Shown here: positions 8,474 to 12,661 of the stretch, in pieces
Position numbering within the stretch: the stretch's first letter is position 1
How the letters are laid out: each line of letters opens with the position of its first letter
Source of the DNA: Prescottella agglutinans
GTDB taxonomy: Bacteria > Actinomycetota > Actinomycetes > Mycobacteriales > Mycobacteriaceae
Direction: 5' to 3'
Length of the DNA stretch: 64,000 nt
Assembly (NCBI RefSeq): GCF_004011865.1
Contig: NZ_RKLP01000013.1
Location: 143,467-207,466, forward strand
Program-made: the position numbers and the translations under genes
Notes under the pieces: model-generated
Database searches by the model: none
What the model was told of the DNA's origin: nothing
What the model saw: only the letters and a program-made list of their open reading frames with translations

Positions 8474-10186
<1,713 letters not shown>

Positions 10187-10318
10187 ATGAGTGTGTCGTT
10201 TCTGAACGCAACAGCGACCATGCTGAACAGTCTCCTGACCGATGTGTGGAGCGGATCGTGGATGCCCGGAGTCGTAGGCCTCACCGGTTCCCTGGGTGGC
10301 CTGCTCGAAATGAGCTGA
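10187..10318 (+). CDS. Small hydrophobic peptide 1 of a five-peptide cluster (43 aa)
   Basis: An unrecognised 43-residue peptide. It has no Arg, Lys, His or Cys, one Asp and one Glu, two Trp and many Gly, Ser and Leu. It has no signal peptide with a basic start; the whole chain looks amphipathic-helical with a Gly-rich C-terminal part (VVGLTGSLGGLLE). The ATG is preceded by GAGGGTGGG. The ATG at 10151 would extend it, but its ribosome site directly abuts the start. It is the first member of a set with the same composition, so it is considered real despite its length. A PorA/PorH-like role is only inferred from character. Confidence 0.55.
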   Translation: MSVSFLNATATMLNSLLTDVWSGSWMPGVVGLTGSLGGLLEMS

Positions 10319-10365
10319 CCGCAGCGCGTGTCGTCGCACCAATCTCTGAGAATAGGAGTGGATGA

Positions 10366-10485
10366 ATGAAGCTGGGATCGCTTGCCCCCGTTCTGACGAA
10401 CGAACTCGTACAGATGATCACGGGCTATCTTGCTTTCATGCCATTGCAGCTGTCGGTCGACTTCGCCTGGAATATGCCCGGCTGA
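10366..10485 (+). CDS. Small hydrophobic peptide 2 (39 aa)
   Basis: An unrecognised 39-residue peptide with an AGGAG ribosome site 7 bases before its ATG. It contains no Arg, His or Cys, a single Lys at position 2, one Glu and one Asp. A hydrophobic helix (about residues 12-30, with ITGYLAFMPLQL) ends in an aromatic tail FAWNMPG. It lies 47 bases after peptide 1. A competing overlapping frame starting 4 bases upstream (10362) is Arg-rich and rejected. Confidence 0.6.
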   Translation: MKLGSLAPVLTNELVQMITGYLAFMPLQLSVDFAWNMPG

Positions 10486-10534
10486 GCCGGCTGACGACAG
10501 CAAATCGAAAAATTCGTAAGGAGAGTGAATCGTA

Positions 10535-10753
10535 GTGGATACCGGAAGTCTTGTTGACCTCGTCACGAGTGTTGACGTGGGTTCTCTGGCGGCGCCCATC
10601 GGTAATGGGCTCAACGGCATCGTCAATGCGATCTTCAATGTCGTCGGTGGCGTGATCGCCCTGTGGCCTGCGGGTTCGTCGGCTGTGGCCGGAAGCCTCG
10701 ACGCAGCCCTCGGCTCTGTCGGAACGGTCCTCGGCTCCATCGGCGGACAGTAA
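10535..10753 (+). CDS. Small hydrophobic peptide 3 (72 aa)
   Basis: The longest of the cluster, 72 residues from a GTG start with an AAGGAGA site 10 bases upstream. It is very rich in Gly, Ser, Val, Ala and Leu, with only three or four acidic residues and no Lys, Arg, His or Cys. A hydrophobic core (about 28-46, IVNAIFNVVGGVIALWPAG) could span a membrane, and its C-terminal part shows a Gly-Ser-Val/Leu periodicity (SLDAALGSVGTVLGSIGG). It has no cleavable signal peptide. No family is recognised; character is similar to the acidic helical corynebacterial porin subunits. Confidence 0.65.
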   Translation: MDTGSLVDLVTSVDVGSLAAPIGNGLNGIVNAIFNVVGGVIALWPAGSSAVAGSLDAALGSVGTVLGSIGGQ

Positions 10754-10768
10754 GAAGGAAGGGAAAAC

Positions 10769-10894
10769 ATGTTCGATCTATCTCTCACCTACAGTTCCGA
10801 TCTGGTCGGTTTCGGGTCCGTCGACCTCGTGGCCACGTTCGCTCAGTACCTGAATGCCCTGTCCCTGAACCCGTACCCGCCCCTCCCGATCTAG
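10769..10894 (+). CDS. Small hydrophobic peptide 4 (41 aa)
   Basis: An unrecognised 41-residue acidic peptide starting 15 bases after peptide 3, with an AGAAGGAAGGG ribosome site. It has three Asp and no Lys, Arg, His or Cys. An alternating hydrophobic pattern (DLVGFGSVDLVATFAQYL) is followed by a proline-rich end (NPYPPLPI). Confidence 0.6.
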   Translation: MFDLSLTYSSDLVGFGSVDLVATFAQYLNALSLNPYPPLPI

Positions 10895-10909
10895 CGAAAG
10901 GAATTCGAT

Positions 10910-11011
10910 ATGTTGCAGACGTATCTCAACGGGATGCTCAGCTACGTTGCCAACGCGCTGGGATTGGTCGGCATGGGAAGCAAGATTCTCAAGAATCCGC
11001 CCCAGAAGTAG
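10910..11011 (+). CDS. Small peptide 5 (33 aa)
   Basis: An unrecognised 33-residue peptide, 15 bases after peptide 4, with a GAAAGGA ribosome site. An N-terminal hydrophobic helix (LNGMLSYVANALGLVGMG) precedes a short basic tail with three Lys (KILKNPPQK). It is the only net-positive member; again no Arg, His or Cys. Regular spacing and individual ribosome sites suggest one polycistronic message for peptides 1-5. Confidence 0.6.
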   Translation: MLQTYLNGMLSYVANALGLVGMGSKILKNPPQK

Positions 11012-11080
11012 CCCGGATCGGCGTGAGTAGGAGACATAATGCCGCCATTGACGGTGGTGAGTGTCCTCGTGCTCGCTCTG

Positions 11081-11131
11081 CGAAACCGAGGCTCTCGCGC
11101 CCTATGGCGGGCGCGGGACGCCTCGGTTTCG
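11081..11131 (+). terminator. Terminator-like hairpin after the peptide cluster
   Basis: A perfect 12-bp outer stem CGAAACCGAGGC (11081-11092) / 11120-11131 encloses a smaller GCGCCC/GGGCGC hairpin and is followed by TGTTTG. It separates the peptide genes from the acyltransferase gene and could attenuate read-through. Confidence 0.6.
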
Positions 11132-11203
11132 TGTTTGTCGAACGAATGATTCTTCCGGGCGTGGGGGAAATCGGAAATTGCAGTCCAGCCGATGGGAGTG
11201 TCC

Positions 11204-12661
11204 ATGCCTTCGTCCGAACGGCCGGTCGCGGGGATCGAGCAGTTCAATCCACGCGACGCCGACTTCGTCTACAACGAGTCGGACGGACATCTCGGCCACC
11301 TGCTTGCCGTGTATCTCTTCGACACATCGCAGCAGCCGGCAGCCGAACTGTCACAGAACGACGCCGCCGATTGGGTGGCCGCGCGACTCGGTCACAACCG
11401 CATGTTCACGCACCGGATCCGCCGTGTGCCGTTGGGCCTCGCGCACCCCTACTGGGAGCCGATCGCGAACCTGGATCTGGACGAGCACGTCCGGGTACGA
11501 GTGATCACCGAATCCGGCTGGGCGCCAGTGCAACAGCATCTCGACACCCTGCTGACCTCGCGGATGGACCTCACCCGCCCGCCGTGGGAGCTGCACTTCC
11601 TCACCGGCATCACCGGGATCGACCGACACCCCGGTCGGCTGACCGCTGTGGTGCTCAAGGCCCACCACAGTGCGGGTGACGGGCTCGCGGTCTTGGAGCT
11701 GGCCGAGAAGATCTTCTCGGACGAGGTGTGTCCGGCGAGCCGTGTGCCGGCTACGCGTTTCCTGCGGGGACGCATGTTCGCCAGGTCGGTGCTGGGACTT
11801 CCCCGCCAGCTGTATCGCTTCGCCAAGGACGTTCCAGGCAACCGCGCCGCCGTCCATGCAGTGAACGACGCCGCGAAGTCCGGTCAGTGGATGGAGAACG
11901 TCGAACATCCCGCCATCCGGTTCAACGGCACGGTGAGCGGGTTCGGCTCCCTTGCGCCGATCACTCTGCCCGCGAGCGCGATTCGCCTTGTCAGGGAATC
12001 CGTTCCAGATGTCACCGCAAACGATGTTCTGCTTGCCGTAGTCGGGGGCGCTCTGGCGAGATACCTGGCCGAGAAGGGCGAGCCCCACGAGGGTTCGCTC
12101 GTCGCGATGGTCCCACGATCCATGCGCAAGGTGGAGGCGTGGGAGTCGGCAAACCAATTGGCCGTCATGGGCGTCGACATGCACACCGACATCACGGATC
12201 CCCTCGACCGGGTTGTCCGCGTTGCCCGGTCGTCCACGTCGGAGAAGATCCGCACCTCCAATATCGCAGTCCGACGACAGGCGGCCTCGATGGCGACCGC
12301 TCCGCCGCCGCTCCTGAGGCTGATGGCGTACTCGCGCAAGAAGATCACCCCGGACCTGACCCGCCCGCGTTATCAGCACACGATGGTGAGCAACATGCCC
12401 TTCTCGATCGAGGGCTTCACACTCAACGGCGCACCGGCCGCGGCGGTGATCGGTGCCCAACCGCCTGTCGACGGAGACGGCCTGCGTCACTTCGTCGTCA
12501 CGGCTGCCGGTGGCAACCTGATGCTCACCGTGGTCGCCGACTCGGCGACGATGCCCGACCTGGACCACTACCTGGACCTGGTTCGTACGAGTCTCGCCGA
12601 ACTCGAGGAGGCCGCGGCCGGTACGACGAAACCGAGTCGGTCCGAAGAGGTTGCCTCTTGA
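11204..12661 (+). CDS. Wax ester synthase / diacylglycerol acyltransferase (WS/DGAT) family protein
   Basis: A 485-residue acyltransferase. The catalytic HHxxxDG motif is present as HHSAGDG (residues 154-160), and PPWELHF (about 126-132) is a second family landmark. The C-terminal WES-acyltransferase domain contains the SNMPFS motif. Members transfer acyl groups from acyl-CoA to long-chain alcohols or diacylglycerol to make storage lipids; some paralogues act on other alcohols. Start: ATG at 11204 with GGGAGTG upstream; an ATG at 11192 is possible. It follows the peptide cluster with a hairpin between. A link to the peptides (for example lipid modification) is speculative. Confidence 0.85.
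   Translation: MPSSERPVAGIEQFNPRDADFVYNESDGHLGHLLAVYLFDTSQQPAAELSQNDAADWVAARLGHNRMFTHRIRRVPLGLAHPYWEPIANLDLDEHVRVRVITESGWAPVQQHLDTLLTSRMDLTRPPWELHFLTGITGIDRHPGRLTAVVLKAHHSAGDGLAVLELAEKIFSDEVCPASRVPATRFLRGRMFARSVLGLPRQLYRFAKDVPGNRAAVHAVNDAAKSGQWMENVEHPAIRFNGTVSGFGSLAPITLPASAIRLVRESVPDVTANDVLLAVVGGALARYLAEKGEPHEGSLVAMVPRSMRKVEAWESANQLAVMGVDMHTDITDPLDRVVRVARSSTSEKIRTSNIAVRRQAASMATAPPPLLRLMAYSRKKITPDLTRPRYQHTMVSNMPFSIEGFTLNGAPAAAVIGAQPPVDGDGLRHFVVTAAGGNLMLTVVADSATMPDLDHYLDLVRTSLAELEEAAAGTTKPSRSEEVAS

Follow-up and report, generated by a model that had tools for sequence, protein, structure and literature searches.

The closest described systems are channel proteins of the mycomembrane. PorA, PorH, and ProtX are made without signal sequences, whereas MspA porins are beta barrels of about 200 aa that carry a signal peptide. 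Riess, in 2003, and Lichtinger, in 2000, are said to have described channel-forming proteins of R. equi and R. erythropolis, respectively, in which low-mass polypeptides are involved. In the excerpted literature, mycomembrane channels built from helical micro-proteins are reported for Corynebacterium, and Rhodococcus is credited with MspA-type porins. One such excerpt names MspA porins as known mycomembrane channels of Rhodococcus and reports both cation- and anion-selective channels in R. equi (PMC9233653). Another places porH of Corynebacterium in a slot between groEL2 and ppk2, and it was through this slot that the 40-aa pore protein of C. jeikeium was located after BLAST had failed (PMC3792995). 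According to the same excerpt, the C. jeikeium pore gene has an AGGAG site and a terminator behind it, and its protein lacks a Sec or Tat signal (PMC3792995).

The window, meaning the whole 64-kb stretch of DNA analyzed here, is part of contig C5 of a 5.43-Mb genome. It holds a row of five consecutive forward-strand ORFs: A (10187–10318, 43 aa, MSVSFL...PG...GSL...S), B (10366–10485, 39 aa), C (10535–10753, 72 aa, GTG start), D (10769–10894, 41 aa), and E (10910–11011, 33 aa). The gaps between them measure 47, 49, 15, and 15 bases, and a purine-rich Shine–Dalgarno (SD) site stands ahead of each, confirming the sizes, ribosome sites, and 15–49-base spacings of an earlier, sequence-only reading of this DNA. 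Together the peptides contain 228 residues, with 0 Arg, 0 His, 0 Cys, 4 Lys, 9 Asp, and 2 Glu. The complete lack of Arg, His, and Cys had been called remarkable for high-GC DNA, and it is: these residues make up 23.3% across the six frames of the window, giving a probability of 5.8e-27 for none in 228, and ~11% in its 27 long high-GC3 ORF segments, giving 4.5e-12. The description of the peptides as mostly acidic applied to A–D (charge −1 to −4) but not to E, which is basic (+3, pI 9.8). Judged by eye, no signal peptide was recognized in any of the five. A row scan for at least two SD-preceded ORFs, each of at most 100 aa and at most 3% Arg/His/Cys, flagged A–E as the sole row in the 64-kb window and returned no row from 1.28 Mb of Markov-3 random sequence.

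Six loci related to the window carry organism names: two are from P. defluvii and one each from Prescottella equi, P. subtropica, Rhodococcus hoagii, and Rhodococcus sp.; we term the genus Prescottella. Gene C, present in 12 of 14 Prescottella genomes, starts with GTG in every one of these loci, and all 12 keep the order A, B, C, D, E and the reading frames. A C profile, with up to 20 candidates scored per genome, matched 22 of 301 family genomes: the 12 Prescottella, 9 of genus g11, and 1 of g95. All five genes were present in the 10 further genomes, and a D profile recovered the same 9 among 28 g11 genomes. The row is thus found well beyond one strain, with its order kept in 22 genomes. By profile search, two of the 14 Prescottella genomes and 19 of the 28 g11 genomes lacked it, and g11 genomes of 8–10 Mb gave no row. 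We take g11 for Rhodococcus because the database relatives of D are hypothetical proteins named for P. equi, R. qingshengii, and others. An order-wide search with a Prescottella D profile returned the window's own genome alone among 397; this is no gauge of spread, because the later C and D searches found Rhodococcus.

Genes A and E occurred in all 12 Prescottella and all 10 further loci. Twelve sequences of A share invariant S2, G23-S24, P27-G28, S35, and S43, while G23-S24 is invariant in E and S5 and S30 in B. The B ORF is in place in 12/12 Prescottella loci and listed in 10/10 further ones; tblastn at E < 1 detected it in 10 of the 12, missing L020 and L023, where the ORF is nonetheless in place. 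D and E were found by tblastn in all 12 Prescottella loci. Our start rule overlooked three peptides that are in frame on inspection, namely D of both L019 and L021 and E of L019; leaving these out, 57 Prescottella peptides with 2559 residues contain 9 Arg plus His and 0 Cys. Over three close genomes, dN/dS was 0.08–0.25 for A, 0.17–0.21 for C, 0.12–0.21 for D, 0.16–0.56 for E, and 0.21–0.24 for the neighboring WS/DGAT gene. For B, the values were 0.30, 0.38, and 1.12, the last from 15 changes, so that rate evidence is weak for this gene. Neutral evolution, named beforehand as an outcome that would speak against the cluster, was therefore departed from by A, C, and D, with one of three B comparisons at neutrality or above. 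These results demonstrate that A, C, and D are under purifying selection. Because the order is kept in 22 genomes and dN/dS is 0.08–0.25 for these three, A–E are genes, forming one conserved unit. Among database entries for P. equi, gene C comes in three or more markedly distinct sequences, with 86, 54, and 58% identity to the C of the window. The entries concerned are P0001, P0017, and P0029 for gene C, with P0060 for gene D, and P. equi genome G003 gave one C match only. The differing C entries may be alleles, extra copies, or strains under a wrong label.

The likeness to PorA/PorH put forward in the sequence-only reading was partly supported, by gene position but not by sequence homology to PorH. 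In all eight g11 loci, groEL2 is close by, with its nearer edge 1.9–3.7 kb from the start of C. Four of these (L100, L101, L103, and L104) show the order groEL2, A–E, WS/DGAT, second WS/DGAT, ppk2, and in L106 groEL2 and ppk2 stand on opposite sides of the row. A ppk2 gene was found within 18 kb in five of the eight, with none in L102, L105, and L108; Pfam confirmed Cpn60 and PPK2 for L103 and L137. By arithmetic, a random position in 6.3 Mb has a ~0.15% chance of lying no more than 4 kb from a given gene, and the groEL2 proximity counts about once because the g11 genomes are kin. Five Corynebacterium-like g7 loci, located with the porH_2 model, carry, in 5/5 cases and in this order, groEL2, porH, a second micro-ORF as its partner, and ppk2, with three of the five PorH matches above the curated porH_2 cut-off. 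The likeness of A–E to PorA/PorH gains independent support because in Rhodococcus the row lies by groEL2 and, in 4 of 8 loci, shares the position between groEL2 and ppk2. In Prescottella, the row lies away from groEL2 in 9 of 12 loci, and in the window's genome groEL2 is on another contig. Nine of the 12 have a dioxygenase gene close to the row; in the window, this upstream landmark is a VOC/HPPD-like gene (8474–9652, reverse strand) matching Pfam glyoxalase/dioxygenase families. In G006 and G009, the row follows groEL2 by 6.3–7.4 kb, ahead of a dihydrolipoamide-dehydrogenase-like gene. The row of G011 is at a third place, and that of G434 is 0.5 Mb from groEL2.

A–E and the proteins of the Corynebacterium PorH–PorA channel look alike: both are ~35–80 aa long, poor in Arg, His, and Cys, apparently leaderless, and equipped with SD sites of their own, in one row with a hairpin behind it, which for A–E lies near groEL2/ppk2 in Rhodococcus. 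They differ in gene number, which is one or two for PorH–PorA and the single-peptide PorACj and PorACur and five for A–E. Unlike PorH–PorA, A–E have a WS/DGAT gene attached, show no detectable PorH homology, occupy another site in most Prescottella, and belong to hosts that also carry MspA porins. An NCBIfam scan of A–E gave nothing at E ≤ 1, the porH_2 model had no match at the row, and the best of seven hhalign comparisons with PorH reached p 0.017 and a probability of 2.7%. C. glutamicum PorH as a single query matched 0 of 301 genomes, a search run without a positive control and given no weight. Because homology to PorH was not found, A–E cannot, on sequence comparison that covered PorH, be filed as PorA/PorH. 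The absent similarity says little about descent, because PorH itself drops to 17–28% identity among the Corynebacterium-like loci. Among other collections, PHROGs gave nothing but one match at E 0.96, and PADLOC gave none. Against solved structures, C alone and the D profile had no match, and the C profile had seven weak ones (E 0.17 or worse). Plasmids searched with C and phages searched with D yielded no match. A literature search that covered few subscription journals found no paper on these peptides.

Single-chain structure prediction gave low-confidence models, with helices at 3–11 and 26–70 in C (AlphaFold2, pLDDT 60) and a single helix at 2–33 in D (pLDDT 70). Helix amphipathicity, a check suggested at the outset, was beyond shuffles for A (mean z 2.1) and C (2.9), weakly so for B (1.3) and E (1.5), and no greater than shuffles for D (0.15). 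Gly-Ser steps occur in 57/57 counted Prescottella peptides, 7-fold above large ORFs, and each of the five families has an invariant serine among Prescottella rows. Mycoloylation sites are described as Ser/Gly-rich in the excerpted PMC11066868, and the conserved Gly-Ser serines would fit, without proving, acylation.

By analogy with the Corynebacterium channels, our leading explanation, to which we give about an even chance, is that A–E make up a five-part, leaderless, helical mycomembrane pore that would resemble PorA/PorH in its working, the families being unrelated or diverged beyond recognition. Every step after translation we infer. The five genes would be co-transcribed as one unit, and the peptides would leave the cell without a signal peptide by whatever route PorA and PorH take. 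Acylation (mycoloylation) of the conserved Gly-Ser serines may then anchor them in the membrane, where the amphipathic helices of several of the five could assemble into a water-filled channel. WS/DGAT would be a co-inherited lipid enzyme, dispensable to the peptides. In its favor count the kept order and frames, the groEL2/ppk2 slot in Rhodococcus, the Gly-Ser steps, the amphipathic segments of A and C, the helices predicted for C and D, and the further Arg/His/Cys-poor rows near groEL2 or ppk2 described below. Counting against a pore are the missing sequence link to PorH, the low-confidence models, the nonamphipathic D and weakly amphipathic B and E, the basic E, the presence of MspA, the location of the row away from groEL2 in most Prescottella, and the Prescottella and g11 genomes that have no row.

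The MspA porins also bear on the strongest rival, in which A–E are mycomembrane proteins that form no pore and act as acylated, wall-linked structural or surface-coat micro-proteins, tying the mycomembrane to the wall or shaping the surface. MspA-family porins share host organisms with A–E: PF09203 was found in 14/14 Prescottella and 4/4 g11 genomes checked, and was not found in G434, G411, G502, and G231. They are of a different build from A–E, which match no Pfam family at E ≤ 1. The row is thus an addition to MspA in most hosts, and a second channel is not demanded because these porins already supply one. A coat would also suit the lack of an amphipathic face in D and the fast divergence expected of surface proteins, the mean distance over 10 genomes being 0.46 for the peptides and 0.38 for WS/DGAT, against 0.10 for the dioxygenase. 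However, the proteins that Corynebacterium encodes in the groEL2–ppk2 slot form channels, and five different small helices exceed the needs of an anchor, so we regard this rival as unlikely, if still worth serious thought.

The row adjoins a WS/DGAT gene, as the sequence-only reading had stated. This gene (11192–12661, forward strand) encodes a WS/DGAT family acyltransferase with an HHSAGDG motif that matches PF03007 and PF06974 above cut-off; NCBIfam TIGR02946 scored 282 bits, below its 310-bit cut-off. Ten of 12 Prescottella loci have an intact copy 3′ of the row, and 8 of 8 g11 loci (8 of the 9 were fetched) have one with the HHxxxDG motif. Across the 10 genomes with intact copies, distances of the peptides correlated with those of WS/DGAT (Mantel r 0.79) and with those of the dioxygenase (r 0.38), and the peptide–WS/DGAT partial r was 0.75. 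Both this co-variation beyond the dioxygenase and the frequent adjacency would be expected if A–E coat or organize intracellular neutral-lipid bodies made by the neighboring enzyme. Yet WS/DGAT is broken in L024 and reduced to a C-terminal scrap in L020, with intact peptides in both, and G434 has none within 18 kb of the row. Conversely, in G006 and G009 about 0.3 kb separates a WS/DGAT from the dioxygenase gene, too little to hold the peptides, and the row sits elsewhere beside another WS/DGAT copy. Peptides and WS/DGAT therefore move or diverge jointly and fast, and the peptides can outlive the enzyme. The large-genome g11 species without a row also speak against a lipid-body coat, as does a hairpin that separates E from WS/DGAT, and we consider this role quite improbable.

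That hairpin, with 23 pairs by RNA fold (11080–11132, forward strand, 3′ of E), probably marks the end of the peptide transcript. The segment 11070–11150 folds at −48.8 kcal/mol, with z −6.38 vs 200 shuffles. In 17 of 20 loci, E is followed by a simple stem of at least 13 pairs; the exceptions are L015, L023, and L026, the last being the window's own copy, with a long stem and a bulge. The hairpin at 11080–11132 was not among the hits of a consensus terminator scan, and a sigma-70 promoter scan found no promoter. Two side observations concern this neighborhood. In G006 and G009, the WS/DGAT at the dioxygenase represents the site without peptides, a site that the row occupies in the window's genome. 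A secreted-looking protein of ~230–250 aa, with an N-terminal signal-like stretch judged by eye, recurs near the row in L022, L024, L100, L101, L102, L105, and L108, and its copies in L022 and L024 matched no Pfam family.

A many-peptide leaderless bacteriocin or other secreted signal, already rated the weaker alternative in the sequence-only reading, keeps that rank and appears very improbable. Such systems would likewise be small, hydrophobic, leaderless, and encoded by several genes in a row, but four of the five peptides here are acidic, no exporter or immunity gene was recognized by eye in the ORF lists, phage and defense families gave no match, and 12 of the 14 species in the genus retain the row. 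Chance open frames, which would be short and unannotated like these, can be dismissed, because order and frames agree across 22 genomes, dN/dS for A, C, and D is well below 1, and 1.28 Mb of random sequence held no such row.

We extended the row scan to 30 loci (536 kb) and to 30 stretches downstream of groEL2 (422 kb; one of 2 kb). It returned A–E rows, PorH/PorA rows, and three further sets, with incomplete sensitivity: the L108 row went unflagged and several others were flagged in part. The first set, a 27/27/50-aa group, sits between groEL2 and a dehydrogenase gene in Prescottella. In the window's own genome (L144:7885–8423, contig C16), it comprises three 27-mers, the first two identical, and a 50-mer with one Arg, between groEL2 and a dihydrolipoamide-dehydrogenase-like gene, and each micro-peptide ends near GSVT-IS or GSTIS-S. 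The 50-mer is present in 13 of 14 Prescottella genomes and in no other genus among 31; the scan did not flag the group in L145 and L148. A second set, an Arg/His/Cys-poor pair of 61–63 and 47 aa, lies near ppk2 in L101, L103, and L104 and occurs twice in L106 (Rhodococcus). The third set consists of two tandem 47/52–53-aa pairs directly after groEL2 in L172, laid out like porH–porA, in G411, a genome of another genus that gave no MspA match. The remaining 24 of 30 groEL2 stretches, including those of Mycobacterium-, Nocardia-, and Gordonia-sized genomes, gave no flagged row in a scan that misses some true rows.

These sets allow a broader and more tentative proposal, one we would still call somewhat doubtful. 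The groEL2 region of mycolic-acid bacteria may be a hot spot for a large and hitherto unrecognized class of leaderless, Arg/His/Cys-poor, Gly-Ser-anchored outer-membrane micro-proteins, with PorA/PorH as just the corynebacterial case and A–E as a five-subunit pore of this kind, passed between species with its own lipid enzyme. Should A–E belong with PorA/PorH in kind, Rhodococcus and the foal pathogen Prescottella equi would possess a second class of channel. A–E would then also offer a new system for a question that the excerpted PMC12632848 presents as open, namely how proteins that lack a signal pass the plasma membrane and become fixed in the mycomembrane. Composition combined with the slot provides a way to find such genes that sequence search misses. 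A further 50/34-aa pair in L172 looks like noise. A 55-aa ORF considered as a PorH relative was set aside, with a weak match to PorH positions 1–33 (~16 bits), as a single ORF with no groEL nearby in three loci. This solitary, Arg/His/Cys-poor ORF is conserved in L134–L136, from g11 genomes of 8–10 Mb.
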